Assembly (NCBI RefSeq): GCF_004138335.1
Contig: NZ_RYFW01000002.1
Coordinates: 1,407,501-1,471,500, forward strand
From: Peristeroidobacter agariperforans
Lineage (GTDB): Bacteria; Pseudomonadota; Gammaproteobacteria; Steroidobacterales; Steroidobacteraceae
Reading direction: 5' to 3'
Length of the DNA: 64,000 nt
In this document: positions 26,860-51,482 of the stretch, in pieces
Layout: each line of letters begins with the position of its first letter
How positions within the stretch are numbered: position 1 is the stretch's first letter
The notes under the pieces: model-generated
Seen by the model: only the letters and a program-made list of their open reading frames with translations
What the model was told of the DNA's origin: nothing
Databases searched by the model: none
Position numbers and translations under genes: made by a program

Positions 26860-27228
26860 ATGAAAGCTCGCATGATACTTGCCATGGCCGGCACGCTGGC
26901 GCTCGCGGCGACACCGCTCGCATCGTATGCCGGTTCGAATCAAGCACTCGACGCGTGCGTCAAATCGTTCGTCGAGACCTATATTCCCAAAGATCGCGTG
27001 GTGCGCGTCCACAAGCACCAGCCCACAATGGGCCCACTGGGCATGATGCAGGCGGGAAGAAAAGACACGTACACGATTGCGCTCTCGGCGGTTGGCAAGC
27101 GCAGCGGCAAGGAGATTGCGCAGGCGCGGTGTGTTGCAAGCAGGCGCGGTGAGGTAATCGTGATAGACAGTCCGCCCGCCGGTTCCTATGTTGCCAAGGC
27201 AGATTTCGCTGCCGTGATTACTCGCTGA
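26860..27228 (+). CDS. Small secreted protein A (unnamed family, member 1)
   Basis: A 122-residue protein with a signal peptide (MILAMAGTLALAATPLASYA). The mature part of about 98 residues contains ALDACVKSFVETYIPKDRVV, a basic loop, DTYTIALSAVGKRSGKEIAQ and ARCVASRRGEVIVIDSPP. Two cysteines (in DACVK and QARCV) could pair in the periplasm. AGGAGA precedes the ATG at 26860 at good spacing. Paralogues are encoded at 31,527 and (truncated) 51,255, each behind the same regulatory box. A perfect terminator follows. I know no name or function for this family. Context points to the low-oxygen or NO response. Confidence 0.8.
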   Translation: MKARMILAMAGTLALAATPLASYAGSNQALDACVKSFVETYIPKDRVVRVHKHQPTMGPLGMMQAGRKDTYTIALSAVGKRSGKEIAQARCVASRRGEVIVIDSPPAGSYVAKADFAAVITR

Positions 27229-27248
27229 TTTCTCCGTCCCCCCGGAAA

Positions 27249-27280
27249 GGGCGACAGTGGCTGCTGTCGCCCATTTTTTT
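27249..27280 (+). terminator. Rho-independent terminator of protein A gene
   Basis: A nine-base stem, GGGCGACAG paired with CTGTCGCCC around a six-base loop, is followed by A and seven T residues. Confidence 0.9.
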
Positions 27281-27381
27281 GGCTCGGTGAGATGGAGGCC
27301 CGCCGATCATCCATCCATGAGCGTTATCGCGGAAGGCTCTGGTGAAATTCCATGTCGACGACGGCCCGCCGCGCTGCTCAC

Positions 27382-27395
27382 CTGATCTAGATCAA
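27382..27395 (+). promoter_or_regulatory. FNR/DNR-type box upstream of the nosZ remnant
   Basis: CTGATCTAGATCAA is a near-perfect palindrome about 87 bases before the first plausible nosZ codon. The promoter site has outlived the gene. Confidence 0.7.
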
Positions 27396-27468
27396 CTACG
27401 TGCCCCTCCGATCTTTCTACCATGCGCCAGTTTTCGGACTTAACGTCCTTCACTGGAAAAAACACAAC

Positions 27469-28045
27469 GTGACCAAGCAAACAAACCGACCCAGACACCC
27501 GTTCTGGATGACCTGGGGCGCAGGAAATTTTTGAACACCGCCACGTTTGCGGGCCCGGCGGGCATGTCGCTCGGCATTGCGGGCTGCAAATCCGAGGGTG
27601 AGCGTGGCAGCGCCACGCCGGCGGCCGATGCCGACGCTGCGATCGATTACAGCAAGTATGAGGTCCACCCGGGCCAACTCGATGAGTACTCGCGTTCTCC
27701 AGCGACGGTCACTCGGGCGAGGTGCGCGTCTATGCATTGCCTTCCGGTCGACTGCTGAAGCGCATTCCGGTGTTCAATGTCGACTGCTTGGTCGGCTGGG
27801 GCATCACCAATGAATCCAAGCAGATCATGGGGACCCATCCGGACGGCACGTTGAAGTATTGGACCGGCGATACCCATCACGTGCATCCGTCCTACACCGA
27901 CGGCACTTATGACGGTCGGTACCTGTTCGTGAACGACAAGATCCACGGCCGCATTGCGCGCGTGCGTCTCGACACGATGGAGTGCGACAAGATCACCGAG
28001 CTGCCGAATGTGCAGGGGTTCCACGGCATCTTTCCCGATAAGCGG
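27469..28045 (+). pseudogene. nosZ: nosZ (nitrous-oxide reductase) 5' fragment, frameshifted
   Basis: The start of a clade I NosZ is recognisable: a Tat signal region with DDLGRRKFLN and AGCKSEG, then YSKYEVHPGQLDEY. In another frame come GHSGEVRVYALPSGR, IPVFNVDC, WTGDTHHVHPSYTDGTYDG and PNVQGFHGIFPDKR. A one-base loss near 27,691 changes the frame, and another shift near 27,500 separates the possible GTG start (27469) from RRKFLN. After PDKR (28,045) the sequence changes abruptly to a decarboxylase. About two thirds of NosZ, including the CuA domain, are missing. No nosRDFYL genes are in the window. Confidence 0.88.
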
Positions 28046-28904
28046 CTATCTAGCAACCCTATTTCGCCACGTCGACGGTACTCTGCGCTCACGCGAGAGT
28101 GTCGCGGCAGAGTTCAAGCAGTTCGCATCCTCGCGCACCTATGCCGCGATCTCGGCGCTCAGTCAGACCGACTCCATCACGATCGATCCACACAAGTTGG
28201 GCTACATGCTCTACGGCGCCGGGGCATTCATCTGCCGGGATCACCGGCCCATGTCGTTGCTCGCCATCGAGGCCGACTATGTATTCGCGAATGATCCGCC
28301 GCGCGACTATCTGAGCCGCTATCGGCAACTCGGGCGGTATGTTCCGGAGGGCTCCAAACCCGGTGCCATGGCGGCTGCGGTGTACGTGACTCACCGAGTG
28401 CTCCCGCTCGACTACGCACATTACGGGCGCCTGCCTGCGCAAAGCCTGCGCGCCATCGAAGCGTTCGTTTCACGTGCGCAGCGCTTCATAAAGGAGTGTG
28501 CCAGGCACACTCATGTTTGCCTGCCGTTCATGCCCGACTCGAATCTGGTCTGCCTGGCATTCAATCTCGTCGGGAATTCGTCAATCGACCTCGCAAATGA
28601 GCTCGTGCACCGGCTGCACGAGGAGATGAGGATCGATCCTCACGCGCCGGTGCAGATACGTGAGTTCTTCGGGTCCACGACCAGCCTGCGCCTGGATATG
28701 CTCGATCCCGAGGTCGTGCCGCAGCTGTTGGAACAGCTGCATCGCACCGTTCCGGTAGTGGAGTACGCGACTGCGCGCCTGTTGGTGCTGAGGCATACGA
28801 TCATGAATCCGTTCTTATTGGATGAGGAGAACGGCGTGAGTTACATCGACCGATACTTCGAGTTTCTGGCTCGTCGTATCGAATGTGTGCGATGTCCCGG
28901 TTGA
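28046..28904 (+). pseudogene. PLP-dependent (group II) decarboxylase, 3' half only
   Basis: From GYLATLFRHVDGTLRS onward the frame is the C-terminal part of an aromatic-amino-acid/glutamate-decarboxylase-like enzyme. The PLP-binding lysine lies in SITIDPHKLGYMLYGAGAF. The rest of the large domain and the C-terminal small domain follow intact to the stop. The 5' half, including the substrate and PLP-phosphate contacts, is absent. The piece is joined in the same orientation to the nosZ fragment, so it has no own start. The intact frame over about 285 codons suggests the fusion is recent. Confidence 0.8.
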
Positions 28905-28909
28905 GGTGA

Positions 28910-28936
28910 GGCGCGAGCAGCCACGCCGCTCGCGCC
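28910..28936 (+). terminator. Stem-loop between decarboxylase remnant and azurin
   Basis: A nine-base GC stem, GGCGCGAGC with GCTCGCGCC, is followed on the plus strand by a pyrimidine-rich AGCTTTCCTCTC. It separates two convergent units and may act in both directions, although the T-tract is weak. Confidence 0.6.
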
Positions 28937-28966
28937 AGCTTTCCTCTCAATCAGCAATCGAAGCTA

Positions 28967-29431
28967 TCAACCGAAGGTCAGCTTGCCCTTCATCACCGAC
29001 CAGTGGCCGGGGAACGAGCAGAAGAACGTGTAATCGCCGCCTTTCTTCAAGCCCGAGGTCGGAAACGTGATGCTGGTGCTTTCACCGCCGCCGATGACCT
29101 TGGTGTGCGCGAGGACGCGTTTGTCGTCTTTCGGCACATAGTTGTTCGGCAAACCGGCCGACATGCCGGCGGTGGCGACCGCCTGGAACACCGACGTTTC
29201 CGCCAACACCCAGTTATGGCCCATCGCGGCGGCAGGCAGCTTGCCCGAATGCTTCAGAGTCAGCTTCACTTCGGTGCAATCGGCGGCCACGGCCAGCGAC
29301 TGCTTGTTGAACTGCATGGCGTCGTTGCCTTCGATGGCCAGCTCGCAAGTCTTGGCGGCGTGAGTGAGCGGAGCGAAGACGCTGAGCGCGCCGAGCAGAA
29401 CGGTGGATGCGAGAGCTCTTGAGATTGTCAT
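28967..29431 (-). CDS. azu: Azurin
   Basis: A 154-residue periplasmic blue copper protein. Signal peptide ALASTVLLGALSVFAPLTHA, then AKTCELAIEGNDAMQFNKQS. Copper ligands are the His in MGHNWVL and Cys-His-Met in FCSFPGHWSVMKGKLTFG (C-x4-H-x3-M). The conserved Cys3-Cys26-type disulfide is visible (KTCEL, ADCTEV). Azurin can donate electrons to Cu nitrite reductase and accept them from cytochromes, which fits NirK here. It lies downstream of nnrS2 on the same strand, probably in one unit with the box at 30,828. The ATG at 29431 gives the signal peptide. Confidence 0.95.
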   Translation of the reverse strand: MTISRALASTVLLGALSVFAPLTHAAKTCELAIEGNDAMQFNKQSLAVAADCTEVKLTLKHSGKLPAAAMGHNWVLAETSVFQAVATAGMSAGLPNNYVPKDDKRVLAHTKVIGGGESTSITFPTSGLKKGGDYTFFCSFPGHWSVMKGKLTFG

Positions 29432-29537
29432 TGGGATTACCTGCTGATGCGATGGGACATGCGGACGGATTTTCCGGCGTGGACGACCGGCTTTCAAGGA
29501 ACAACCGCCGATCAATTGCGAAAGTAACACTGCTCGC

Positions 29538-30749
29538 TTAGCCCGATTTGCCGTCAAGCCGGGGCTGCAAAAAGATGGGTGCATAAACGACGAGGTACAG
29601 TAAGAATGCCGCGCTCCAGAGCAGACCTGCGGCGAGCAGGATGTGGCGATAGTCAGCGACACCCAATGCAGGACCGAACACTCGAACCACGACCGCCGCG
29701 GTGAGGACGAGATAAGAGAGGGCAGTGGTGCGAGTGACAACGAGCGGGCGTCCCGTGTGGCCGAGCGACGCACGCGTCATGACCGCAAGAATCATGGTGC
29801 CAAACGCGCCGAGGTTGAGCGCATGCAGCCACTGCGCACTCCAAGCCGCTCCCATGAACACCCAGATCGACTTGAGGGCCAAGCCGATTGGCAACCAGGC
29901 GTACCCGACATGCAGGATCCATACGATCGGCTCGCGCCAAGTGCGCCCGCCACGCCACCCCGATAGCCGCAGCGCGTGTGCCGCGGCAGCGATCGCCGCC
30001 AGAACGCCGCTTAGTGATGAATTCGGCCACACTGCATCGACCAGCGTGATCGTCATCATCACGGTGATGACCACCGGATCGAGCCAAGGACGCAGCACAA
30101 GCTCTGTCGTTTCGCCATGCCGTCGCAGCGCATTCGCCGTGAAGGAGGGAACGATGCGACCGCCGATCACGGTCACCAGGATCAAGACGAAGTTGATGGC
30201 GAGGTGCAACGCGCGCTGAGCGATCAACGCATCTTCGGAACGCATCGCCATGACGAACGCCAGATCGGCGAGCCAGAGCACGGCGATGACCGCGAGCATG
30301 GGTGTATTGCGATTGCGTGCACGTAGCAGCGGCGGAGCCAGCAACACGGCGACCACAGGAAGGAACGCGAGCTCCAGGGCGCCCATCAACCACGTCGGCA
30401 GGAAGGCGGCGGCGGCCATCGCACAGCGTCCCGCGAGCCAGAGCGTAACCACCAGAATCAATGGCAAGCCGGCGAATCCGCGTGACCCGGTCCAACTCGG
30501 GACGGCAGTCAGCAGAAATCCCGCGATCGCCGCGCCGACGAATCCGTAGAGCATTTCGTGACCATGCCACAACTGCGGTGGCAGACCTGGCAACGCAACC
30601 ATGCCTTGCGAATACACCCACAACCAAACGGGGACCGCAATGAGTGCGTAGATGCCAGCCAATAGATAAAACGGACGAAAGCCATAAGCGAACAGGGCGA
30701 AGCCCCGCGGCCGGGATGAGGTCACGGAAGCAGAATCTGTGGTGTGCAT
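29538..30749 (-). CDS. nnrS: NnrS family protein (second copy)
   Basis: A 403-residue polytopic membrane protein with the NnrS start LFAYGFRPFYLLAGIYALIA. Conserved elements are PPQLWHGHEMLYGFVGAAIA, GGRIVPSFTANALRRHG, WLHALNLGAFGTMILAVMTR and ASLGHTGRPL. It contains roughly 12 helices. It is a clear paralogue of the 19,662 copy but only moderately similar, so it is probably an old duplication or a separate acquisition. An FNR-type box lies about 80 bases upstream and azurin follows. Confidence 0.92.
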   Translation of the reverse strand: MHTTDSASVTSSRPRGFALFAYGFRPFYLLAGIYALIAVPVWLWVYSQGMVALPGLPPQLWHGHEMLYGFVGAAIAGFLLTAVPSWTGSRGFAGLPLILVVTLWLAGRCAMAAAAFLPTWLMGALELAFLPVVAVLLAPPLLRARNRNTPMLAVIAVLWLADLAFVMAMRSEDALIAQRALHLAINFVLILVTVIGGRIVPSFTANALRRHGETTELVLRPWLDPVVITVMMTITLVDAVWPNSSLSGVLAAIAAAAHALRLSGWRGGRTWREPIVWILHVGYAWLPIGLALKSIWVFMGAAWSAQWLHALNLGAFGTMILAVMTRASLGHTGRPLVVTRTTALSYLVLTAAVVVRVFGPALGVADYRHILLAAGLLWSAAFLLYLVVYAPIFLQPRLDGKSG

Positions 30750-30827
30750 CAGCGCGCCGGCGCTTTGCCAGGAAGGCAGGATCGGTGCTCCATGGCGCCA
30801 GCTTGCTGTTAGTCGGCGCGAAGTGCC

Positions 30828-30841
30828 TTGACCTAGATCAG
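30828..30841 (-). promoter_or_regulatory. FNR-type box upstream of nnrS2-azurin
   Basis: The plus-strand reading is TTGACCTAGATCAG. It is centred about 85 bases before the nnrS2 ATG at 30749. Confidence 0.7.
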
Positions 30842-30857
30842 GCCACTTCGCCTTAAG

Positions 30858-31208
30858 TCATCCACACGCCGAATCGCGTCCACAGCCACAGCCGACGTGC
30901 GCATTGCCGATCGCTTCGAGCCGTCGCGAGGCTTGACCGAAGACGTCATCGAGCGCCTTTGCCATCGCATCTTCACGCCGCTCGGCAGACGCCTTACCCG
31001 TCACTACAACGGTCTCGCCGAAGACCTTCAGCGCCGCTTTCACGGTGAAGGCCGCTTGCTGCCGCTCGCTGGCCGTGGAACTTTCGATCACGACCCCGCA
31101 GGACTCGATCGAACCGCAGTAACCGCTGAGCCTGTTCGTAAACGCAAACACGCTTTGCTCCAGATCGCGAAAAGAATGTGTCTCAGGCAGAAGGATGGAT
31201 ATGTGCAT
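30858..31208 (-). CDS. HPF/RaiA-like ribosome-associated protein (second copy)
   Basis: A protein of about 116 residues. Its order of strands and helices follows the HPF/sigma-54-modulation fold: SFRDLEQSVFAFTNRLSG, IESCGVVIESSTASERQQ, FTVKAALKVFGETVVVTG and a long helix EDAMAKALDDVFGQAS. The C-terminus carries a short Cys/Gly cluster (VGCGCGRDSACG) that could bind metal. That cluster is unusual for HPF. The ATG at 31208 is preferred because the domain begins soon after. A role in ribosome hibernation during anaerobic stress is inferred. Confidence 0.6.
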   Translation of the reverse strand: MHISILLPETHSFRDLEQSVFAFTNRLSGYCGSIESCGVVIESSTASERQQAAFTVKAALKVFGETVVVTGKASAERREDAMAKALDDVFGQASRRLEAIGNAHVGCGCGRDSACG

Positions 31209-31450
31209 AGCGTAAAAGTGTGCGAGGCGTACTCGCGGCACGGCCATTCGGGATTCCTCGTGTCAGGTAAGTTCCAACCCCGTAAGTGTTCGAGCGGCAT
31301 CGGCAATGAGGCTGCCTATGTGGCCGAATCCAGCTGGGCCAATCGCGGCGAATCCGCGACGGTCATCCCGATGCGACCGCTACGCACACCCGCTACGAGC
31401 AGTGGAAGGCAGGACGACCGGCATCTTGCCGATCCAAGTTGGAGGTCTGC

Positions 31451-31464
31451 TTGATCCAGGTCAA
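31451..31464 (+). promoter_or_regulatory. FNR-type box upstream of small secreted protein B
   Basis: TTGATCCAGGTCAA, centred 69.5 bases before the GTG at 31527. The geometry is nearly identical to that of paralogues A and C. Confidence 0.8.
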
Positions 31465-31526
31465 GGCATGTTGTATCGGGCTTGTCACAATGATGACGAG
31501 GACAAGAGTCATCGAGGAGACGAGCC

Positions 31527-31892
31527 GTGCATACCAGAGGAGCATTCCGTGTCGCTGCCGCGCTCGCATTCCTGGCGGCCCCCGTGGTTTCCCATGCGGA
31601 CCCGTCGAGTGCCGCCGTGGATGTGTGCGTCAAGTCGTTCGTTGAGGCGTACCTCTCCAAAAATCGTATCGTGCAGGTCATCAAGCCTTCGGATCCGGTG
31701 GACGTGTTCGACTACGTGTACGCTCCAGAGACATACACCATCGCGCTCACGGCCCGCGAGGTTCGCAGTGGCGACGTACTCGCACAGGCGCGATGTATTG
31801 CGAGCCGTCGCGGCAAAGTGACTGTTCTCGATAGCCCGCCGATCGACAATTACCTCTCGAAAGCGGATATCCGCGTAACCGTCGGAGGCTAG
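31527..31892 (+). CDS. Small secreted protein B (unnamed family, member 2)
   Basis: The product has 121 residues. A short signal peptide (FRVAAALAFLAAPVVSHA) precedes the family core AAVDVCVKSFVEAYLSKNRI. Next come ETYTIALTAREVRSGDVLAQ, ARCIASRRGKVTVLDSPP and YLSKADIRVTV. The two cysteines are in the same places as in protein A (26,860). It starts at a GTG preceded by AGGAGA seven bases away. It sits alone behind its own FNR-type box. Function is unknown. The shared box and secretion signal imply an envelope role under low oxygen. Confidence 0.8.
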   Translation: MHTRGAFRVAAALAFLAAPVVSHADPSSAAVDVCVKSFVEAYLSKNRIVQVIKPSDPVDVFDYVYAPETYTIALTAREVRSGDVLAQARCIASRRGKVTVLDSPPIDNYLSKADIRVTVGG

Positions 31893-32136
31893 CGTCGAGA
31901 GGCTTGAGATTCGACCCTCATCGCAGCGTGCGCGATGGTGTTCCGCAAGTCCACCGGCGCGAGCGAAGCCTTGCTGGTACGCGCAAGCTGACCCGCTTAG
32001 AACATGTACAACGCGATCCCGTGCTCGCTGCAGACGAGTGCATCCGGCATTCGCACGAGCGTTCGCCTCACAATGAAGTTCATTCCCTGGCCCCTTGAGC
32101 GGCCCCGTCTTTTCAGCATCAGCATTAGCTTCAGCC

Positions 32137-33288
32137 ATGACGCAGCCTCAGCCTGATTGGGATCCGTATTCGTCGGCCGCCTCGGCAAACCAGAGCGCCG
32201 GATATGACGACCAGCGACGCCGCTGTCCAGTCGCTTACAGCGACGCCCTTGGATGGTCCTTATTTCGCCATCGAGACGTGGTGAGCGCGCTTACCGATGA
32301 CGCAATGTTCAGCAACATGGTGTCAGCGCACCTTTCCGTTCCGAATGGCATAGATCCGCCTCAGCACACTGAGTATCGGCGCATCATCGATCGCTACTTC
32401 TCGATCGATCGCATGGAGGCGCTCGAGCCGCGATGCCAGGAGATCGCTCGGCAGGCGGTGCAGGCTCTGCCGATCAACGGCGAGTTAGATGTGATGGCGG
32501 AGTTCGCCCCTGAGTTCGCGCTTCAGTCCCAGTGTGCTTTCTTGGGCTGGCCGGCGGACTTGCACCGCCCATTGCGGGATTGGGTGCGGAAGAACCATGC
32601 AGCGACACGTAGCCGTGATCGTGACGCGATGTCCGCCGTCGCCTTCGAATTCGATCGACACATTCGCGCAGTGCTGGAGGAGCGGCGGACGACGGGTTCA
32701 GAGGGATGCGATGTCGCCAGCGAGCTATTGCGCGAGCGGCTCGGCGATCGCACGCTGAACGATCAGGAAATCGTGAGCATTCTGCGCAACTGGACGGTCG
32801 GGGAGCTTGCGACGATTTCCACCTGCATCGGCATCCTGATCGCGTTCTTGGCCGAGCATGCATCGATGCAGCGGTTGCTGCGAGCGCAGCCGTCGCTGCT
32901 GCCGGCGGCGATCGAGGAAATCCTGCGAATCGGCAGCCCGCTCGTGAGTTCACGCCGGCGTACGAGGCACCGCGTGCGGATCGGCGGCTGTGAGATCGAG
33001 GCCGGTGAGCGCGTGACGCTCATGTGGGCGTCGGCCAATCGCGACGAGAGTACCTTCGAGCATCCCGACGAGTTCAGGCTCGATCGGAATCCGGCGCTTA
33101 ACTTGTTGTATGGGGCGGGGCTGCACGTTTGTCCGGGCGCGCCTCTCGCGAGGCTTGAATTGCGCGTGCTGATGGAAGAACTGCTCGCCTCCGTAGAACT
33201 GACGCCGAGTACGAGCTCGCGCCCTATCAGGGCGGTCTACCCGGCGAGTGGCTTCAGCGCGTATACCGTGCGAGTGACGAAGAGATAG
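32137..33288 (+). CDS. Cytochrome P450
   Basis: About 383 residues, a soluble bacterial P450 length. Visible are the K-helix EEILR, the meander and the heme-binding loop LLYGAGLHVCPGAPLARLEL with the cysteine thiolate. DPPQHTEYRRIIDRYFS is the usual B'-C region. The I-helix reads RNWTVGELATISTCIGILIA and lacks the ordinary acid-Thr pair, so oxygen activation or substrate use may be atypical. No ferredoxin or reductase partner lies nearby. I use the ATG at 32137; the frame stays open to 32095. Confidence 0.88.
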   Translation: MTQPQPDWDPYSSAASANQSAGYDDQRRRCPVAYSDALGWSLFRHRDVVSALTDDAMFSNMVSAHLSVPNGIDPPQHTEYRRIIDRYFSIDRMEALEPRCQEIARQAVQALPINGELDVMAEFAPEFALQSQCAFLGWPADLHRPLRDWVRKNHAATRSRDRDAMSAVAFEFDRHIRAVLEERRTTGSEGCDVASELLRERLGDRTLNDQEIVSILRNWTVGELATISTCIGILIAFLAEHASMQRLLRAQPSLLPAAIEEILRIGSPLVSSRRRTRHRVRIGGCEIEAGERVTLMWASANRDESTFEHPDEFRLDRNPALNLLYGAGLHVCPGAPLARLELRVLMEELLASVELTPSTSSRPIRAVYPASGFSAYTVRVTKR

Positions 33289-34599: not shown

Positions 34600-34616
34600 A
34601 GCGCTAACTCCTCTGG

Positions 34617-40369: not shown

Positions 40370-41152
40370 CTATTGGTGAGAAGGCAGCTGCAAGCCGCGG
40401 GCGTGCCGCGCTGGCTGCATCGAGGTCCACACGAGCCAGCTCAGTGGCAGCAGAATCATTGCGTAGGTCAGCCACTGTCCATACAAACCTTCCGGTCCAT
40501 ACGGCTCGGTGACCATGTGCCAGTAGCCGTTGTTGATGGGCAGCAGGCCGGATTCGGTGAGCTCATGAAAGCCGTAGACCAGGAGCTGCACAACGAACAC
40601 GAGCAGGAAGACGGTGGTCACTTGCAGGAATCGCACGAGATTGATGCGATGACCGAGCTTGACCCACAGCATCGCCAGCACCGAGGCCGCCACCAGTCCC
40701 AGCATTCCGCCGAAGAAGAACGGGCGCGTCGATGTCTGCACGTAGGTGGCTGACAGCAGTAACGCGGCCTCCATCCCTTCACGGGCGATCATCAGCACGG
40801 TGAAGGCGAACACGCCCATGAAGGCCCAGGCGCCTTTTTGTAGCGCTGCCTGCTCGATGCGCCCCTCGATATCACGCTTCATGGACTTCGAGGTGCGAAG
40901 CACTTGCACGGTGAAGGTCGCCACGAGCACGGCCGTGAACAAGGCGAGGACACCTTCCCATAGCGGCTGATTCTCCGCTTGCGCGAACAGCAAGGAGGCG
41001 AGGTAACTGGCGAGGAGGGCCACGCCGACACCGAGGTGAACCGCCCGGCCGAGCGCTTCTCGACCGGTCTTGCGCAGGTACGTGAGTGTGATCGCGACGA
41101 TCAGGAAGGCTTCGATACCTTCACGCAGCGTGATCATGAATGCATTAAACAT
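40370..41152 (-). CDS. FTR1/EfeU-family iron permease
   Basis: A 260-residue, seven-helix membrane protein. Two REGxE iron-binding motifs are visible: ITLREGIEAFLIVAITLTYL at the start and LMIAREGMEAALLLSATYVQ in the middle. The family imports iron, taking Fe3+ or Fe2+ from a periplasmic partner. No EfeO, EfeB or periplasmic P19-type protein is in the window. It may serve the high iron demand of heme proteins made here. It is a single gene. Confidence 0.9.
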   Translation of the reverse strand: MFNAFMITLREGIEAFLIVAITLTYLRKTGREALGRAVHLGVGVALLASYLASLLFAQAENQPLWEGVLALFTAVLVATFTVQVLRTSKSMKRDIEGRIEQAALQKGAWAFMGVFAFTVLMIAREGMEAALLLSATYVQTSTRPFFFGGMLGLVAASVLAMLWVKLGHRINLVRFLQVTTVFLLVFVVQLLVYGFHELTESGLLPINNGYWHMVTEPYGPEGLYGQWLTYAMILLPLSWLVWTSMQPARHARGLQLPSHQ

Positions 41153-41275
41153 GAGACAGCCACCTCCTCAAGTCAGCGGGTCCGGTCGAGGACCGAAACA
41201 AAAATCATTATCACGAGCGAAACCAAAAAAAGAGCCGTCGCCACGTGCGGCCTTTGCCATCGAGTGCGGCGCGCT

Positions 41276-42484
41276 TTAAGGGCGCTGGAATACGAGCGAG
41301 GCATTGGTACCCCCGAAGCCGAAGCTATTGGACATCACGGTATCGACCCGAAGCTGCCGCGTTTCCTGCAATATAGGGAAGCGCGCGCACGCGGCGTCCA
41401 GTTGCTCGATGTTCGCGGACCCTGCAACGAAACCGTCTCGCATCATCAGCAGGCAATAAATGGCTTCCTGCACGCCTGCGGCGCCAAGGGAATGTCCCGA
41501 AAGCGACTTGGTCGAAGAAATGAGAGGAGCGCCCTCTCCGAACACCGAGCGTACGGCTTCCAGCTCGAGCACATCACCCAGCGGCGTCGAAGTGCCGTGA
41601 GTGTTGAGATATTCGACGGGGCGACGCACGTGTGCCAGTGCTTGCCGCATGCAGCGCGCGGCGCCTTCGCCGGACGGCTGAACCATGTCGTGGCCGTCGG
41701 CCGTGACGCCATAGCCCACGAGCTCGGCATAGATGCGCGCCCCGCGTGCCTGCGCGTGTTCCAGCGATTCCAGAACGAGCATGCCGCCGCCGCTGGCAAT
41801 CACGAATCCGTCCCGCAGCTCGTCGTAGGCACGCGATGCGCGTTCAGGGGTGTTATTGCGCGACACCGATAACGCGCCCATTGCGTCGAACAGCCCCGTG
41901 AGAGACCAATGTTCCTCTTCGCCGCCACCGCAAAACATGATGTCTTGCAGACCGAAGCGAATCTGTTCGGCCGCCGCACCGATGCAGTGAGCGCTCGTCG
42001 CGCAGGCCGAGGTAATCGAGTAGCTCACGCCCTTGATGTGAAAGGCGGTGGCAAGGCAAGCCGCGACGGTGCTGCACATCGTTCGCGGCACACGGGTGGC
42101 GCCGACCTTTCGGACACCTCGTTGTCGCAATGTATCTGCCGCGTCGACGACGTTCGCTGGGGAGCCGCCGCCGGTGCCGGCGATGAGGCCCGTTCGGCAA
42201 TGACTCACCTCGTCCGGACTGAGCCCGCTATCGGCGATCGCTTGAGAGAGAGACACAGCGGCAAACGCAGCCGCATCCCCCATGAAGCGCCGGTCACGCC
42301 GATCCACCAGCGCCTCCAGATCGATCTGCGGAATGCCGGCGATCTGGCTGCGCAAGCCGACCTGCGCATACCCCGGCATCGCGCGGATGCCTGATTGGCC
42401 TTCGGCGAGGGCGCGGCTGACAGTGTCGAGATCGTTGCCCAGGCAGGAGACGATGCCGATTCCAGTGACGACAACCCGACGCAT
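41276..42484 (-). CDS. fabB: Beta-ketoacyl-ACP synthase I FabB
   Basis: A 402-residue condensing enzyme. The start [20 protein letters not shown] is typical. The catalytic triad lies in [18 protein letters not shown] (Cys), [15 protein letters not shown] (His) and [11 protein letters not shown] (His), with [12 protein letters not shown] at the C-terminus. FabB extends the cis-3-decenoyl-ACP made by FabA and is needed for anaerobic unsaturated fatty acid synthesis. ATG 42484 shares one base with the fabA stop (TGATG), so the pair is coupled. Confidence 0.94.
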
Positions 42485-43050
42485 CAGGCGACCCCGCCGC
42501 GGATGATGCCGTCTTTGAATAACCCAACGCGCAGACCCTGCGCGGTGTAGATCTTCTCGCCATCGGCGCTCAGCGAACCATCGCCCGTCACCATGATGAG
42601 CTTGCGCGCGATGACGCGTTTGATATCGATCTGATACGTGACCCGGCGTACCTGCGGCAGCACCTGTCCGAAGAAGCGCACTTGATCCACGCCGAGCGCG
42701 CGACCCAAGCCGCGATGTCCATCCCAGGCGAGATAAAATCCGATGAGTTGCCACATCGCATCGAGGCCCAGGCAGCCTGGCATCACCGGATCGCCGCGAA
42801 AGTGACAGTCGAAGAACCAGAGTGACGGATCGATGTCGAGCTCGGCGCGCACTTCGCCCTGACCGTAAGCACCGCCCGATTGCGCGATGTGGGTGACGCG
42901 ATCAACCATCCGCATCGGCCCGATCGGCAGCCGGGGCGTGTTCGGACCGAACAAGTCACCTTCGCCGCAGGCGATGAGCTCCTCGCGATTGAATGAGGAT
43001 TGGCCTAGGGCTGCGCCGATGTCGCGGCGGGCGATGGGTTGGTGCTGCAT
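42484..43050 (-). CDS. fabA: 3-hydroxydecanoyl-ACP dehydratase/isomerase FabA
   Basis: A 188-residue hot-dog-fold enzyme. The active-site His and Asp are in [20 protein letters not shown] followed by [27 protein letters not shown] is also conserved. It dehydrates and isomerises C10 acyl-ACP, the oxygen-independent branch point to unsaturated fatty acids. An FNR-type box is centred 43 bases before the ATG. Oxygen control of fabA through FNR is not the usual E. coli arrangement (FadR/FabR). Confidence 0.95.
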
Positions 43051-43086
43051 AGGACTTGATTAGAGCGCGCGTGTAGGATCGATGTC

Positions 43087-43100
43087 TTGATTCAGATCAA
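43087..43100 (-). promoter_or_regulatory. FNR-type box upstream of fabAB
   Basis: TTGATTCAGATCAA has both half-sites perfect. It is centred about 43 bases before the fabA ATG, so a -41.5 activator would place transcription start almost at the start codon. Confidence 0.82.
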
Positions 43101-43116
43101 GGCAAGCCCCGATTAG

Positions 43117-44598: not shown

Positions 44599-44610
44599 TG
44601 CGAGATCCGT

Positions 44611-44624
44611 TTGACGCGGATCAA
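44611..44624 (+). promoter_or_regulatory. FNR-type box between ubiD and ubiT
   Basis: TTGACGCGGATCAA, centred about 61 bases before the ubiT ATG at 44679 and 20 bases from the divergent ubiD ATG. It could activate ubiT and affect ubiD. Confidence 0.75.
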
Positions 44625-44678
44625 GAGACTGCGCTCATCGATGTGGCAGAAGGGGACTTTCGACTGCTGGAGACACGC

Positions 44679-45218: not shown

Positions 45219-46020
45219 CGCTGCTGTCGCCGAGCACGGCCGCGCGAAACGCCTGCACAATCTCTGGGAAGTCGCGCGATTGCGGCGACAGCCGCAACAC
45301 ATCGACGCCCGCATTGCGCAGCTTGGGTAAATGCGGCAGCAGGTTCTGTGTCGCGGCCGATTGTGTCTGGATACCGTTCAAGGTGAGAAAAGGCTGCCCG
45401 TCGCGCGTGTACACGGTCGTGCCATCGGGGTGCGCCGCACAGATGAACTCACAATCATCCTTGGCGCGACGTTGGGACCGCGCCGTGAAACAGCGCGCCG
45501 AAAAGGCGAGCGGTAGGCGCCCGTAAGCAAACATTTCGACCTGCAGGTTCGGCGGGCGCAGCTCCGCGAGTGCCGCGACGATCGCAAGCGGCAGCTCGAC
45601 CGGCGCAACCCAGCGTTGCGCGCCGTGTCGCGCGAGTAAGTTCAGGGTGGCCTCGTTGTAAACATTCAGGTGAGGGCCAGCCACGAAAGGATGGCCTGCG
45701 AGGTATTCCACGCACGCGTAGTCGTTGGCTTCGACAAGTGTGTCTGCACTCTCCGCGATGCGAGCCAGCGTGGCGAGCTCCGATTCCGCCTCGATCAATG
45801 CAAGCGTCGAGATCACAACTTGCTTCCCGGCGGAGCGCAGCATCCCAGCCACGCTCTGCCATTCCTCTTTCTGAAGTAGACGGCGCTTGCTGCAAACGAC
45901 TTCGCCGAGATACACGATGTCCACTGGCGCTTCGCACAGCGACTCGTAGAAGCGCAGCACCGCGCCTCGCTCCCAGAGATACAGGATGGGTCCCACGGAG
46001 AGTTTCAACATCGGTCTCAT
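45076..46020 (-). CDS. ubiV: UbiV, oxygen-independent ubiquinone hydroxylation protein
   Basis: A 314-residue U32-peptidase-like protein with [4Fe-4S] ligands. GEVVCSKRRLL gives the first Cys. ARCFTARSQRRAKDDCEFIC gives three more with spacing 13 and 4, as in E. coli UbiV. LSVGPILYLWERGAVLRFYE is the usual start. UbiU-UbiV hydroxylate the ring using prephenate as oxygen donor. It overlaps ubiU by four bases. The C-terminal tail beyond GGYCDGYLDGAAG, rich in Ala, extends into ubiT on the opposite strand. Confidence 0.92.
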   Translation of the reverse strand: MRPMLKLSVGPILYLWERGAVLRFYESLCEAPVDIVYLGEVVCSKRRLLQKEEWQSVAGMLRSAGKQVVISTLALIEAESELATLARIAESADTLVEANDYACVEYLAGHPFVAGPHLNVYNEATLNLLARHGAQRWVAPVELPLAIVAALAELRPPNLQVEMFAYGRLPLAFSARCFTARSQRRAKDDCEFICAAHPDGTTVYTRDGQPFLTLNGIQTQSAATQNLLPHLPKLRNAGVDVLRLSPQSRDFPEIVQAFRAAVLGDSSATLPSSFLPGGYCDGYLDGAAGIAHAANERPTLPASRALPAAAAASS

Positions 46021-47042
46021 TGCCAGGGGCGGTGGTAGGCACCGAGGGTATGCGTGCGGCCTTCGGCCAGATGGTCGAGTGCATCGGTGACGGTGGGGGG
46101 CACGGCGGCGCTCGTTCCATCAAGGCAGTGATCCAGGGCACGCCGCATGACTCTCGTGACCTGTGCCACGTATGCCGGTGAGCGCTGTCGCCCCTCGACC
46201 TTCACTGCGCGAATGCCGGCCGCAATCAGTCGGGGCAATACGTCCAACGCGTTGAGTGCCGTGGGTTCCTCGAGCGCGTGGAACACGTCATCATTCACAC
46301 GGAAGCGGCCCTTGCACAATGTTGGGTAACCGGCGGCCTCGCCCGGCGCATAGCGGTCGATGAGCACGCCGTTCAGGCGCGACTGGCGTCCCTCGGGCGT
46401 TTCTTCCCAGCGCACGGCCTGTGCCGGCGAGCAGACGCCTTGCATGTTGGGGGAGTGACCGGTGGCATAGGAAGAAAGTGCGCAGCGACCCTCGACCATG
46501 ACGCACAAACTCCCGAAGCCGAATATTTCGATCTCCACCGGCGTGCGCCCGATCAAGCGTTCGACCTGCGTCGCGGAGAGGACTCGCGGCAGCACGGCGC
46601 GCTGGATGCCGAACTGGCGTCGATAGAACTCGATGGCGCGCCAATTCGTTGCCGAGCCTTGCACGCTCAGATGCAGCCGCAGGCGCGGGTGATGCTCACG
46701 TGCATATTTCATGAGTCCCGGATCGGCCAGGATCAAGGCATCCGCGCCTACCGTGACGGCAGCGTCGACAGCGGCGGTCGCAGCCGCCCAGGACTTCGGC
46801 ATGGGATAGACATTCAATGCAATGAACACGCGCGCACCCGAGAGGTGCGCATGTTCGATGCCGGTCGCGGCGTCATCGATGCTGAAATTCAGGCCCGGGA
46901 AATTTCGTGCATTGGTTTCTCCGCGAAAGCCGATGTAGACCGCATCGGCGCCATGATCGACAGCGGCACGAAGCGCGGGGAGGGAACCCGCCGGGCAGAC
47001 CAGCTCGACGCGTGAGGATGGTTCGACTTGCATCCCACGCAC
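46017..47042 (-). CDS. ubiU: UbiU, oxygen-independent ubiquinone hydroxylation protein
   Basis: A 341-residue U32-family protein. VELVCPAGSLPALRAAVDHG and ADAVYIGFRGETNARNF are characteristic. Cluster cysteines occur at GSLCVMVEGRC and MQGVCSP with spacings 7 and 17, and another in TLCKGRF, matching E. coli UbiU. It acts as a heterodimer with UbiV. The start may be ATG 47042 or ATG 47033: the FNR-type box at 47069-47082 would place transcription start near 47034, so the shorter start could be leaderless. Confidence 0.93.
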   Translation of the reverse strand: MRGMQVEPSSRVELVCPAGSLPALRAAVDHGADAVYIGFRGETNARNFPGLNFSIDDAATGIEHAHLSGARVFIALNVYPMPKSWAAATAAVDAAVTVGADALILADPGLMKYAREHHPRLRLHLSVQGSATNWRAIEFYRRQFGIQRAVLPRVLSATQVERLIGRTPVEIEIFGFGSLCVMVEGRCALSSYATGHSPNMQGVCSPAQAVRWEETPEGRQSRLNGVLIDRYAPGEAAGYPTLCKGRFRVNDDVFHALEEPTALNALDVLPRLIAAGIRAVKVEGRQRSPAYVAQVTRVMRRALDHCLDGTSAAVPPTVTDALDHLAEGRTHTLGAYHRPWQ

Positions 47043-47068
47043 GTTATCGCGCCGGCAGCGGCTGTTCC

Positions 47069-47082
47069 TTGATTCAGGTCAA
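47069..47082 (-). promoter_or_regulatory. FNR-type box upstream of ubiUV
   Basis: The plus-strand reading is TTGATTCAGGTCAA. It sits immediately before the stop of fnr2 and is centred only 33-43 bases from the two candidate ubiU starts. Confidence 0.78.
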
Positions 47083-47083
47083 T

Positions 47084-47803
47084 TCAATGAGTGGGGGTGC
47101 TCGATGCGAGTGCCAGGACCGTCACCAGGTTACCTTCGACATGGATCGCGCGCTCTCGATGCAGCCGCTGCATCAGACGGCTGACCGTTTCGACGCGCGT
47201 GTCGAGCAGATTCGCCAGTTCTTGCCGGCTCAGGCCGAGCGAGAACCGATGACCGTCCAGGCCTCGCTGTGACAGCCGCTGTGCGAGGTCGAGCAAGAAC
47301 GTCGTGACTCGCTGGCGCACCGGCCCGCGTGCGGGATGGTCGCGCGGTACCGCTGCACGGCTGAGCAGCCGCAACAGCGCCGAACCGAGCTGGCGGACCC
47401 GAGCACTGTGCTCGCCCAGCATCGGCAACGGCAACTCGCAACAGACAACGCGGCTGAGTGCGATCGTGTCGCACGCGTAGGTGCCCGAGCCGAAGCTTTC
47501 GAGGCCGAGCACTTCTCCCGGTGTGTGAATCGCCAGTACGGCTTCGTCGCCTTCCTCAGTCACCCTTACGGTTTTGACCATGCCTTGCCGGATCGCATAG
47601 ATACTATGCACAGGCGTTCCGGCACGGAACAGCGACGCCCCCGGTTCGATGGTGCGCAATGCGCCGCTCGATTGCCGGGCGGCGCCGGTCTCGAACGCGA
47701 TCAACCCGCAAAGTCGACAGACCTCATTCAGATCACAGGAGCCACAGGCGATCGGTCCCACGGCCTGCCCATCCATCGGTAGTCGTCGTCGGAGGGTGCT
47801 CAC
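47084..47803 (-). CDS. fnr: FNR-type oxygen-sensing transcription regulator (second copy)
   Basis: A 239-residue CRP/FNR protein. Cysteines at 20, 23, 29 and 122 coincide exactly with the four [4Fe-4S] ligands of E. coli FNR. The effector domain has LRTIEPGASLFRAGTPVHSI and GEVLGLESFGSGTYACDTIA. The helix-turn-helix LSRQELANLLDTRVETVSRL keeps E-x-x-S-R for TTGAT recognition. It is clearly different from the 23,275 copy yet should read the same sites. A perfect box lies 68 bases upstream, shared with divergent nadA. Confidence 0.92.
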   Translation of the reverse strand: MSTLRRRLPMDGQAVGPIACGSCDLNEVCRLCGLIAFETGAARQSSGALRTIEPGASLFRAGTPVHSIYAIRQGMVKTVRVTEEGDEAVLAIHTPGEVLGLESFGSGTYACDTIALSRVVCCELPLPMLGEHSARVRQLGSALLRLLSRAAVPRDHPARGPVRQRVTTFLLDLAQRLSQRGLDGHRFSLGLSRQELANLLDTRVETVSRLMQRLHRERAIHVEGNLVTVLALASSTPTH

Positions 47804-47870
47804 GGCGATTTTCGTTTGATATCCGTCAAGGGTGTGCGAGCGTTATACACAGCGTACCTCGCCACCGGCC

Positions 47871-47884
47871 TTGATCTAGATCAA
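47871..47884. promoter_or_regulatory. Perfect FNR box between fnr2 and nadAB
   Basis: TTGATCTAGATCAA is a complete palindrome centred 84 bases before nadA and 74 bases before the divergent fnr2 start. It could serve both promoters. Confidence 0.85.
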
Positions 47885-47961
47885 GTGGCACATCGATCGT
47901 GCGACCTACACTCACTCAGGCCCCATTCGACGGCTCGAATTATCGCAAGAGTGATCTTTGA

Positions 47962-48981
47962 ATGCGCGCGATGTCGCTGAAGTTGCCAGGCTCTGATTAC
48001 GGCGTTGCGGAACATGCGCATCGCTATAGCCGCGTCGCGCGGCTGATGCCGCACGCCGAATGGGACGCGCACTACGAACTCGTCGCCTCGATTGAGGCGC
48101 TCAAGCGCAAACGTAATGCGGTCGTGCTGGCTCACAACTATCAAAGGCCGGAGATTTTCCATGGCGTGGCCGATGTGCAGGGCGACTCGCTCGCGCTGGC
48201 GCGCTGGGCCGCGCAGTCGGAGGCGGATGTGGTTGTAATGTGCGGCGTGCACTTCATGGCCGAGACCGTCAAGCTGCTCGCGCCCGATCGCACGGTGTTG
48301 ATTCCCGATGCGCAGGCGGGTTGCTCGCTCGCCGATTCCATCACTGCGGAGGATGTGCTCGCCATGAGAGCGCGCCACCCCGGGGCACCGGTTGTTTGTT
48401 ACGTGAATACCAGCGCGGCCGTCAAAGCAGCGAGCGACATCTCCTGCACATCGGCGAACGCGGTTCAGGTAGTCGAAAGTCTCGGCACGCCCGAAGTGAT
48501 CTTTGTGCCCGATCAGTATCTTGCCGCGTACGTGGCGGCGCGTACGCGCGTGCGTATCCACGCCTGGCGGGGGCGCTGTGAGGTGCACGAGCGTTTCACA
48601 GGGGATCAGGTGCGGGACTATCAGCAGCTCACGAAGGCGTTCGTGCTCGCGCATCCAGAGTGTCCGGAGGACGTGCAACAGGCCGCCGACTACGTCGGGT
48701 CCACCTCGGGCATGATCGATGCCCTTCACCGCCATCGACCGGCGCGCGCGGTGCTAATTACGGAGTGCTCGATGAGCGATAACGTCTGTAGCGCCTTTCC
48801 TGAAACCGAGTTCGTGCGACCGTGCAATCTGTGTCCGCATATGCAGCGAATCACGCTTCAGAACATTCGGGATTGTTTGCAGCGGATGACGTCGGAGATC
48901 GAGATTCCGCGGACGTTCGACATCGCCGCACGCAGGACCGTGCAGAGCATGCTTGAGCTCGATGGAGCTCGACGCGCATGA
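47962..48981 (+). CDS. nadA: Quinolinate synthase NadA
   Basis: A 339-residue [4Fe-4S] enzyme. VVLAHNYQRPEIFHGVADVQ and GDSLALARWA form the N-terminal domain, VVMCGVHFMAETVKLLAPDR the first cluster Cys region, and VVCYVNTSAAVKAASDISCT the second domain. The final cluster region is CNLCPHMQRITLQNI. It condenses iminoaspartate with dihydroxyacetone phosphate to quinolinate for NAD. It overlaps nadB by four bases. The preceding FNR box implies low-oxygen induction, which suits its oxygen-sensitive cluster. Confidence 0.95.
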   Translation: MRAMSLKLPGSDYGVAEHAHRYSRVARLMPHAEWDAHYELVASIEALKRKRNAVVLAHNYQRPEIFHGVADVQGDSLALARWAAQSEADVVVMCGVHFMAETVKLLAPDRTVLIPDAQAGCSLADSITAEDVLAMRARHPGAPVVCYVNTSAAVKAASDISCTSANAVQVVESLGTPEVIFVPDQYLAAYVAARTRVRIHAWRGRCEVHERFTGDQVRDYQQLTKAFVLAHPECPEDVQQAADYVGSTSGMIDALHRHRPARAVLITECSMSDNVCSAFPETEFVRPCNLCPHMQRITLQNIRDCLQRMTSEIEIPRTFDIAARRTVQSMLELDGARRA

Positions 48982-50561
48982 GCGCCCTGGATACCGATGT
49001 ATTGATCGTTGGCGCGGGGGGGGCGGGGCTCATCACCGCGCTGAATGCCAGCAGCCGACGCGTCTGTGTGCTCGCACCCGCTGCGTTCGAGACAACGGAT
49101 ACGTCGAGTGATATCGCGCAAGGCGGGATTGCCGCGGCGGTCGGCGCCGATGACTCACCGACACTTCATTTGCGGGACACGTTGCGGGCAGGCGCGCATC
49201 ACAATCGGAGCGCCGCTGCCTGGCGCGTGTGCCGGGAAGCCCCCGACGCCATCAACTATCTTGCCGCGCTCGGTGTGGGCTTTACCCGTGCGGCCGACGA
49301 GTGGTCACTGCACACCGAGGCTGCTCACTCCCGCCCGCGAGTGCTGCACGTGGACGGGGATGCCACGGGAGCGGCGATCATGCAGGTCTTGCGTCGCCAA
49401 GTCGCCGCTGCTGCTCACGTTGAGCGGCTTTCGCATGCTCGTGCAGTAGCCTTGCTGCGTGATACCAGTGGCGTATGCGGCGTGGCTGCCATGACCGGCA
49501 ATGGGCAACTGCTCACCATCCGCGCACGAGACGTAGTCATTGCGACCGGCGGCATCGGCGGTCTCTACAGCCGCAGCACCAATCCACTCGCGGCGTGTGG
49601 TGACGGTCCGGCGATGGCACTGAGCGCCGGCGCACGCTGCGAGGATCTTGAATTTGTTCAGTTCCACCCGACGGCGCTCGACGTGGATGCAGCACCGTTG
49701 CCGCTCATGACCGAGGCGCTGCGTGGCGCGGGCGCGCGTCTTGTGAACGATGCAGGTGTCCAGTTCATGCGCGAGGTTCATCCACTGGGTGAATTGGCTC
49801 CGCGTGACGTGGTCGCGCGTGCGATCTATGCGGTCCAAGCCGCAGGTGGACGCGTTTGGCTCGATGCCACGCGCCTCACCGGCACGCGCGTTGCGGAGGC
49901 ATTTCCATCGGCTTACAAGATCTGTCGTGCATATGGCATCGATGCCGATCGGGATCTTATCCCGGTGACGCCCGCGGCTCACTATCACATGGGGGGTATC
50001 GCGGTGAATCTCGACGGCCGCGCCAGCCTGCCGCGACTGTGGGCGGTCGGAGAGGCGGCATGCACCGGTCTGCACGGAGCGAATCGGCTGGCGAGCAACT
50101 CCTTGCTGGAGGCAGTGGTCTTTGGGCGGCGCGCGGCACAGGCTTTGAATCGGCAGCCGCCCGGGCCTGAGAGACTGAGTGACGTGTTGCCACCGCTGCC
50201 AGCCATAGCGGATGAACGAGCGGATTGGACGGCACCGCGAGAGTTGCGTGAAATCATGTGGCGCCGCATGGGATTGGTCCGCAACGCGAGCGGAATTGCC
50301 GAAGGCCTTTCCCTAATCGCACACCTGCGCGAGCAAATCCCGCCCACTCGTATGTTGTCCCATTCACGGTTGCTGCTCGCGGAACATATGATGCTCGCCG
50401 CCGCGCGCCGGCTGAGTAGTTGTGGCGCGCATTATCGAAGCGACTGCGCTGACTCTAACGCCAAACTGTCTGACGCACGCGCGCGTCGAGGACCGCTCCC
50501 ACGCCGCAAGCATTCGGCGTGGGCAGCCCGCGCCGCAGACCGATGCTCGTTTTCCACCTGA
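48978..50561 (+). CDS. nadB: L-aspartate oxidase NadB
   Basis: A 527-residue flavoprotein. The FAD motif is TDVLIVGAGGAGLITAL and the succinate-dehydrogenase-like elements are SDIAQGGIAAAVGADDSP, LEFVQFHPTALDVDAAPLPL and HYHMGGIAVNLDGRASLPRL, with GANRLASNSLLEAVVFGRRA. It oxidises aspartate to iminoaspartate and can use fumarate instead of oxygen, so it works anaerobically. The last 40 residues are basic and unlike the usual end. No nadC follows. The stop codon lies inside the next FNR-type box. Confidence 0.94.
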   Translation: MSALDTDVLIVGAGGAGLITALNASSRRVCVLAPAAFETTDTSSDIAQGGIAAAVGADDSPTLHLRDTLRAGAHHNRSAAAWRVCREAPDAINYLAALGVGFTRAADEWSLHTEAAHSRPRVLHVDGDATGAAIMQVLRRQVAAAAHVERLSHARAVALLRDTSGVCGVAAMTGNGQLLTIRARDVVIATGGIGGLYSRSTNPLAACGDGPAMALSAGARCEDLEFVQFHPTALDVDAAPLPLMTEALRGAGARLVNDAGVQFMREVHPLGELAPRDVVARAIYAVQAAGGRVWLDATRLTGTRVAEAFPSAYKICRAYGIDADRDLIPVTPAAHYHMGGIAVNLDGRASLPRLWAVGEAACTGLHGANRLASNSLLEAVVFGRRAAQALNRQPPGPERLSDVLPPLPAIADERADWTAPRELREIMWRRMGLVRNASGIAEGLSLIAHLREQIPPTRMLSHSRLLLAEHMMLAAARRLSSCGAHYRSDCADSNAKLSDARARRGPLPRRKHSAWAARAADRCSFST

Positions 50562-50571
50562 TCCAGATCAA
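50558..50571 (+). promoter_or_regulatory. FNR-type box upstream of the CopD-like gene
   Basis: CTGATCCAGATCAA overlaps the nadB stop and is centred about 75 bases before the ATG at 50640. Confidence 0.7.
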
Positions 50572-50639
50572 CGCAGGCAAGAAACGAAGAAGAGCATGCT
50601 TGCGCTCGACGACATCACGGTCTGTCGGAGCGTTTGCAC

Positions 50640-51089
50640 ATGAGTTATCCGGTCCTCCTGACGTTGCATCTGTTCGGTGCGCTCGTGTTCATTGGCACGG
50701 TGTTCTTTGAAGTGTTGATGCTCGAAGAGGTCCGCAAGTACGTCGAACGCGATGCCATGCGAGCGGTCGAGCAGGCGATCGGCCGACGGGCTCGTCGCAT
50801 CATGCCTTGGGTTCTCCTCGTTCTGTACGGCGCCGGCATAGGCATGGCTTGGACCTATCGTGCCGTGCTTGTCGATCCATGGCGCAGCGGGTTTGGGACG
50901 CTTCTCGCGCTGAAGATTTTGCTCGCAATCAGCGTGCTTGGCCATTTCGGCACGGCCATGACCTGGATGGTGCGGGGGCGGATGTCGTTGCGTCGCTCGC
51001 GCATCATTCATCTCAGCGTGTTCGTTCACATGGTCGCCATCGTCCTGTTGGCGAAGGGCATGTTTCATGTCGGCGATTGGAGCCTGTAA
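50640..51089 (+). CDS. Small CopD-like membrane protein
   Basis: A 149-residue, four-helix membrane protein: PVLLTLHLFGALVFIGTVFF, IMPWVLLVLYGAGIGMAW, LALKILLAISVLGHFGTAMT and IIHLSVFVHMVAIVLLAKGM. Four histidines sit within or next to helices, as in CopD-like and cytochrome-b-like four-helix bundles, so heme or copper binding is plausible. It is preceded by its own FNR-type box and followed by a strong stem-loop. I can assign only a fold type; the role under low oxygen is unknown. Confidence 0.65.
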   Translation: MSYPVLLTLHLFGALVFIGTVFFEVLMLEEVRKYVERDAMRAVEQAIGRRARRIMPWVLLVLYGAGIGMAWTYRAVLVDPWRSGFGTLLALKILLAISVLGHFGTAMTWMVRGRMSLRRSRIIHLSVFVHMVAIVLLAKGMFHVGDWSL

Positions 51090-51223
51090 ATGAGCGCTCG
51101 TCGTCCGCGCGGCCCGCCAGGACGATGCTGAACGAGCCCACTATCAGCGACTCTACGGATGCCGTCACGCCTTCGCCGTGTGTTCCTGCGCTTGCCGGTC
51201 GTGAGATGGTCGCAAAACGCGGG

Positions 51224-51256
51224 CCCTCGCGCGGCGGGAGCGCGAGGGCGTTCTTT
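51224..51256. terminator. Stem-loop between convergent CopD-like and protein C genes
   Basis: A nine-base stem, CCCTCGCGC with GCGCGAGGG around a seven-base loop, is followed on the plus strand by CGTTCTTT. It lies between two convergent genes and touches the protein C stop. Confidence 0.75.
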
Positions 51257-51482
51257 ATTGAAATGGTTTCGGTTGAACAATCTTAGGGTGTCGTGACTGC
51301 GTAGTCGGCCTGGGCGACTTCTCTTTGACCAGGTGCACGACTCGATCTTTCGGGACATGGGTGTCGACGAAGGCTCTCACGCAGGCGTCGACCGCCCGGT
51401 CGGCCGCACCCGCCTGGGATGTCACAGGCGCTGACACCAGCGCGAGCAGCCCGGAGACGGCGATTGCGATTCGGATGCGCAT
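51255..51482 (-). CDS. Small secreted protein C (unnamed family, truncated member 3)
   Basis: A 75-residue protein with a signal peptide (MRIRIAIAVSGLLALVSAPV) and the family start DRAVDACVRAFVDTHVPKDR followed by VVHLVKEK. This is clearly paralogous to proteins A (26,860) and B (31,527). The second half, with the second cysteine and the DSPP motif, is missing; the protein ends in a different basic tail. The FNR-type box is kept at the same distance as in the others. It may be a decaying copy or a shortened functional form. Confidence 0.65.
   Translation of the reverse strand: MRIRIAIAVSGLLALVSAPVTSQAGAADRAVDACVRAFVDTHVPKDRVVHLVKEKSPRPTTQSRHPKIVQPKPFQ

Follow-up and report, generated by a model that had tools for sequence, protein, structure and literature searches.

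Class II FNR sites are centered at −41.5, and their distance to the −10 element (PMC7349173) matches the 21–22 nt observed at the promoters reported here. The FNR protein of E. coli contains four cluster cysteines (PMC4505428). The window analyzed here is a single stretch of 64,000 nucleotides from Peristeroidobacter agariperforans (64 kb; G000:C10:1407501-1471500, in a genome of 7,651,871 bases). Its gene content includes norB/norQ-type genes, nirK, SirB, NnrS, qNorB, FNR, hemN, azurin, a second NnrS, ubiU, ubiV, a second FNR-type regulator, and FTR1. An earlier note on this DNA had described three small secreted proteins, each behind its own FNR box. The analysis of these genes defines an orphan family centered on the Steroidobacteraceae, in which one paralogue group lies behind FNR-type promoters. 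Two findings limit the claim: the FNR box is absent from most of the scanned members, and one of the three copies is a probable remnant.

The features of the window are collected in Table 1. Genomes are denoted by codes, where G000 is the host genome, G074 is S. gossypii, G115 is S. agaridevorans, G106 is Peristeroidobacter soli JW-3, G044 is Povalibacter uvarum, and G085 is a Steroidobacter MAG. The four cysteines listed for the candidate activator have what is presumably the spacing of the cluster cysteines of E. coli FNR. An FNR box followed by a nosZ fragment (TIGR04244 positions 65–182 of 627, E 6e-51) is found at 27382–28042; this truncated nosZ runs into another reading frame and looks broken. 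In the region 40370–43100, the FTR1 iron permease gene is located downstream of fabA/fabB-like genes (by eye) and behind a perfect FNR box at 43087–43100.

Table 1. Positions of the family members, their promoter elements, and selected genes of the window
Feature	Positions	Strand	Remarks
nirK, copper nitrite reductase	17645..19150	-	above TIGR02376 cut-off; C-terminal cytochrome c domain
qNorB-type NO reductase	20907..23183	-	
FNR-type regulator, candidate activator	23275..24027	-	Cys 23, 26, 32, 125; PRK11161 198 bits, below curated cut-off of 228
FNR box of member 1, TTGATCTATATCAT	26788..26801	+	9/10; center 65 nt before start
-10-like hexamer of member 1, GATACT	26824..26829	+	22 nt after box, class II spacing
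Member 1	26860..27228	+	ATG start; 122 aa; signal-peptide-like N-terminus (by eye)
FNR box of member 2, TTGATCCAGGTCAA	31451..31464	+	9/10; center 69 nt before start
-10-like hexamer of member 2, CACAAT	31486..31491	+	21 nt after box
Member 2	31527..31892	+	GTG start; 121 aa; 47% identical to member 1
Second CRP/FNR-family regulator	47084..47776	-	N-terminal Cys cluster
Member 3 (probable remnant)	51255..51482	-	ATG start; N-terminal half only, ~54 aa homologous
-10-like hexamer of member 3, GATACT	51516..51521	-	21 nt after box
FNR box of member 3, TTGACTAGGATCAA	51543..51556	-	9/10; center 67 nt before start
Ferric-reductase-like FAD protein	51655..52992	-	immediately upstream of member 3

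Two of the genes, members 1 and 2, are intact, and their products matched each other at E 2.4e-26 when the host genome was searched. The N-termini of the members inspected were judged by eye to be signal-peptide-like, ending in S-x-A. Over 120 codons, members 1 and 2 differ 52, 32, and 74 times at codon positions 1, 2, and 3, respectively, which points to constraint on the protein. Only four columns are invariant in the 23-row alignment, corresponding to Cys33, Cys91, Pro19, and Ala77 of member 1. All three open reading frames of the earlier note were recovered. The motif it quoted for all of them is found verbatim only in member 1 and reads DVCVKSFVEAYLSKNRIV in member 2 and DACVRAFVDTHVPKDRVV in member 3, and the supposedly shared TYTIALTA is TYTIALSA in member 1. 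The count of three proteins was not upheld, since two genes are intact and the third is a probable remnant that retains only the N-terminal half.

Member 3 can be matched to member 1 over 54 amino acids (47% identity, E 1.6e-17), after which homology stops, so that it lacks the second invariant cysteine as well as the later strands. A piece in another frame, PGQREVAQADYA, resembles the C-terminus of member 1, PAGSYVAKADFA (12 residues, 50%, E 0.13). It begins where the member 3 match ends; the resemblance is weak by itself and the position is as expected. The reading frames thus suggest that member 3 is probably a remnant produced by an internal deletion and a frameshift. The decay may be recent, because the first half still differs from member 1 at 22, 9, and 31 of the first, second, and third codon positions, respectively, over 54 codons.

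Membership in the family was assigned by profile search at E ≤ 0.001. The family was detected in at least 30 of the 217 genomes of the GTDB family Steroidobacteraceae (first 20 candidates per genome scored) and in 13 of the 14 genomes of the host's GTDB genus. Members were also found in at least 12 of the 296 genomes of an order sample (first 15 candidates), two of these being in another bacterial family, and in at least 3 of the 369 genomes of a class sample (first 12 candidates), one of which falls outside the Steroidobacteraceae at 1.1e-4; at these depths weak members were possibly missed. The family occurs almost only in Steroidobacteraceae. The search of named relatives with a 6-row alignment gave nine family loci, and the corresponding single-sequence scan gave zero. 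No member was found in G028 (probably S. denitrificans) in the profile search of the genus genomes, which counts against the reading preferred below. A further copy, on contig C9 of the host genome, has no FNR box. Candidates L005 (E 0.119) and L006 (E 1.03), both from the host-genome search, were judged to be spurious, as was L028 (E 0.0037) after its frame had been read.

Comparison of 23 family members with Pfam returned no convincing match (best E 0.016), and the three window members gave only chance matches in NCBIfam. No match better than E 0.033 was obtained among PDB sequences. The weak matches from these three collections, among them metallo-beta-lactamase fragments, NttC, Lysostaphin_N, and nvBagel4, all have E values of at least 0.016 and were dismissed as chance. 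No paper on the family was found in the literature, which does not disprove the existence of one. The earlier note's description of a family without a known name is supported, and the profile searches recovered homologues that are mostly from Steroidobacteraceae and no convincing match to a characterized family.

An FNR box 65–70 bases before each of the three starts had been claimed, and all three boxes were confirmed in number of matches and position (Table 1). As a control, 250-nt pieces of the window were shuffled and scored 5000 times; the best match was 9/10 in 12 cases and 10/10 in none. Six of the 59 strict YTGATN4ATCAR sites of the host genome lie inside the 64-kb window, where approximately 0.5 would be expected from its length. 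A box is therefore less surprising in this window than elsewhere, and the independent evidence comes from the boxes of homologues in other genomes. Up to 250 nt upstream of 38 loci (29 plus nine more) was scanned, with the remnant treated separately and the matches in G131, G334, and G565 and the second match in G009 left aside. A box of at least 8/10 centered 60–70 nt upstream was found at five of the 38 loci, namely members 1 and 2, G106:C7, G044:C7, and G085:C39, with member 3 as the sixth copy; it is missing at the other 33. Matches of at least 8/10 at other upstream positions were found for L016 (at 29), L021 (at 18 and 151), and L102 (at 189).

The six boxed copies, from four genomes, all have a TTGATN4ATCAA-like box with 8–10 of 10 positions matched. 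In all six, a hexamer that agrees with TATAAT at A2 and T6 also lies at an offset of 21–22 nt past the box. The overlapping offset pair 22–23 is occupied in four copies and other pairs in two or fewer, and just 1 of 20,000 shuffles placed such a hexamer in six of six copies when every offset pair between 18 and 26 was allowed. The same −10 spacing is present at five of the nine other boxed genes of the window and so marks FNR promoters generally, rather than being special to the family. When the six promoters are aligned on the box, 16–34 of 76 flanking positions are identical, with the highest value for L031 versus L032. The retention of box and −10 element while the remaining promoter has largely diverged argues for a low-oxygen need for the protein. 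The retained promoter geometry described in the earlier note stands for one clade (box and −10 element at class II spacing in six of six copies from four genomes) and fails as a trait of the family (five of 38 loci). That note had named homologues mainly in strict aerobes without FNR boxes as a refutation of its reading; homologues mainly without boxes are what was found for the family as a whole and not for the boxed clade.

The distribution of the boxed copies was compared with that of nirK and qNorB in the 14 genus genomes, as had been suggested. A nirK gene above the curated cut-off is present in eight of them. The window qNorB query has matches in ten, of which six reach E = 0 (one of them as two separate parts) and the others are approximately 30% identical or short. 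Both nirK and an E = 0 qNorB are found together in G000, G044, G085, and G106, and boxed copies are present in exactly these four genomes and in none of the ten others. Fisher p values for the association with boxed copies are 0.001 for the pair, 0.085 for nirK alone, and 0.015 for qNorB alone, where the pairing was chosen after the data had been seen and the genomes, being related, do not count as independent. The boxed copy of G085 is located directly behind a nirK-bearing gene row (SCO1-like, nirK, SirB, NnrS, qNorB, FNR) that is syntenic between the window (16232–24027) and L064 (10409–19780). The boxed copy of G044 adjoins an FTR1 iron permease gene with its own perfect box, and that of G106 adjoins ABC-transporter and lipocalin-like genes (by eye). 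Speaking against an anaerobic role, a published table scores S. soli, P. uvarum, and the host itself as negative for anaerobic growth, and S. denitrificans is negative in the same table (PMC7966939). Growth conditions may matter, because S. denitrificans was likewise scored negative; that paper describes plates in an anaerobic pouch for the anaerobic growth of its own strains (PMC7966939).

A tree was calculated without L026, L027, L034, and the remnant. The five boxed proteins cluster together with L013 at a support of 87/86, which is below the threshold of the tree program. Forcing exactly the five boxed rows into one clade gives a slightly poorer fit than the unconstrained tree and is not rejected (p-AU 0.134). 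L013 is from G096, which has nirK and no qNorB match, and no box of at least 8/10 was found in the 818 nt upstream of it. The grouping of the boxed copies in one clade is moderately supported.

An unboxed copy is kept in 13 of the 14 genus genomes. This core copy follows LysR, encapsulin shell, and EncFtn genes at seven of eight loci (L067, L068, L090, L091, L093, L094, and L096), and also at L066 by eye. The genes were named with Pfam at L091 only and by mutual BLAST at the other loci. The LysR gene stands between the encapsulin gene and the core copy, and none of these neighbors is present at L069, the G003 copy. The conserved element TCGTTTGTCG / TCTCGTTTGTCG is located upstream of the core copies and of further unboxed members (e.g., L127; approximately 90 nt before L091:6001), followed in most of them by a TAGATTGG-like or TAGATTG-like element 17–18 nt later. 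The first part of the element is present in two other genera (L018 and L020). A wider regulon was considered for this element and discarded, the strict form occurring once in the genome. Each group has its own promoter, and FNR control is confined to one group. The upstream regions of L016, L017, and L019 contain two TTCACGC repeats approximately 23 nt apart and then a TAGATTG-like element, a layout that is reminiscent of a response-regulator site.

The proposed structure prediction was carried out with AlphaFold on 11 sequences and gave a helix and four strands at moderate confidence. For member 1 the helix spans residues 26–41 and the strands residues 48–53, 70–79, 85–94, and 99–103, with a mean pLDDT of 67. 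Averaged in blocks of ten residues, the pLDDT is 86–91 for the helix and strands 2–3 and below 60 for the loop and tails. The model of the S. agaridevorans protein has the identical order of helix and strands and a mean pLDDT of 65. Foldseek matched neither model to a solved structure at E < 0.05; the best values were 0.13 and 0.068. A disulfide between Cys33 and Cys91 would be likelier than a metal site, judging from the alignment.

The handling of metals or NO in the periplasm, put forward as a possibility in the earlier note, is conjectural. The genes beside the copies (nirK with the SCO1-like gene, FTR1, the ferric-reductase-like gene, and encapsulin/EncFtn) offer hints of metals and differ between copies. 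They would fit a periplasmic protein that handles iron or copper at the envelope and whose boxed isoforms are made when oxygen is low and metal is required by NirK and Nor. In favor of this are the LysR, encapsulin, and EncFtn genes beside the core copy at seven of the eight loci compared (and at L066 by eye), the FTR1 gene with its own perfect box beside the G044 copy, the ferric-reductase-like gene beside member 3, and the nirK and SCO1-like genes ahead of the G085 copy, where SCO1 was assigned by eye and has no NCBIfam name. However, the neighbors vary from copy to copy, the LysR gene separates encapsulin from the core copy, L069 has no such neighbors, and the G106 copy is next to ABC-transporter and lipocalin-like genes. 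In the proteins themselves, no candidate ligand other than Cys33 and Cys91 is invariant across the 23 rows, and no conserved ligand set exists beyond these two; a metal site in the family was rejected on this ground, and a metal-related role is considered unlikely. The helix-strand-strand-strand-strand order of both models could instead indicate a PepSY- or cystatin-like inhibitor, an alpha-beta4 domain that blocks a periplasmic protease or similar enzyme. The weak Foldseek matches include 4hbr, 3u1w, 4k90 chain B, and 3nqz, which we take to be PepSY-like or protease propeptides, and the cystatin-like 2rgq; all fold matches, however, have E > 0.05, and among the matches listed TMq is < 0.4. 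Alignment with hhalign to eight PepSY-type proteins gave a probability of 0.8% (0.1% reversed; 0.3% for the best of 40 column shuffles), and the Pfam search of 23 members, with nothing better than E 0.016, gave zero matches to PepSY. PepSY membership, toward which topology and the weak fold matches had pointed, was rejected on the sequence profiles, and an inhibitor is regarded as quite improbable.

A further possible explanation is hitch-hiking in an FNR-dense island (six of the genome's 59 strict boxes in 64 kb), in which the boxes would serve neighboring genes or have come along with duplications, the proteins being passengers nearing loss. Copy 3 is apparently broken, and no member was seen in 187 of the 217 GTDB-family genomes among the matches listed. 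An identical spacing of box and −10 element nevertheless occurs at three homologues elsewhere, two of which are far from nirK, and neither the constraint on the protein nor the retention of box and −10 element amid a diverged promoter fits a passenger. We consider this explanation improbable. The reading that we tentatively prefer, at somewhat less than an even chance, is that of an exported, disulfide-bearing binding module that was duplicated and came to be controlled by FNR in species possessing NirK and qNor. The mature protein would be just under 100 residues in length, with a single helix packed together with an antiparallel sheet of four strands, probably pinned by a Cys33–Cys91 disulfide. 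It may act through binding, not catalysis, as an accessory of a cell-envelope process. Genomes with nirK and the window-type qNorB would carry extra copies behind class II FNR-type promoters, and extra synthesis would be expected once oxygen drops and respiration of nitrite and NO begins. The host would since have lost one of its three boxed copies to decay. If the link to NirK and qNor is true, a missing accessory of nitrite/NO respiration could be within reach. A bolder version, which we regard as a long shot, is that this lineage-specific envelope family, which the searched libraries lack, is an unrecognized accessory of NirK/qNor nitrite/NO respiration, with one isoform expressed from a promoter of its own and additional oxygen-switched isoforms of that binding module, and would protect or supply periplasmic iron or copper metalloenzymes during NO production.

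Among the nearest known systems is the core paralogue beside encapsulin/EncFtn in the genus, a family member (34% identity across the matched portion, E 5e-12) that has the same two cysteines but differs in having no FNR box and its own upstream element, TCGTTTGTCG...TAGATTG. PepSY and PepSY_2 (PF03413 and PF13670) are small exported domains, as the family putatively is, and share with it the predicted order of a helix followed by strands; the family has no profile support for membership (0.8%) and has two invariant cysteines. NnrS, azurin, and other known denitrification accessories share the box-rich region with the family, the second NnrS gene being boxed too; they belong to known families, however, and have no homology to the small secreted proteins. 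The host FNR has a four-cysteine spacing of 3/6/93, as in the E. coli protein. The promoters of the boxed copies resemble the class II promoters of E. coli FNR and of Ideonella dechloratans cld (PMC7349173) in the 14-bp box and the −10 element at a −41.5-type distance, and they differ in that the start site is inferred and the gene behind the promoter encodes an orphan secreted protein.
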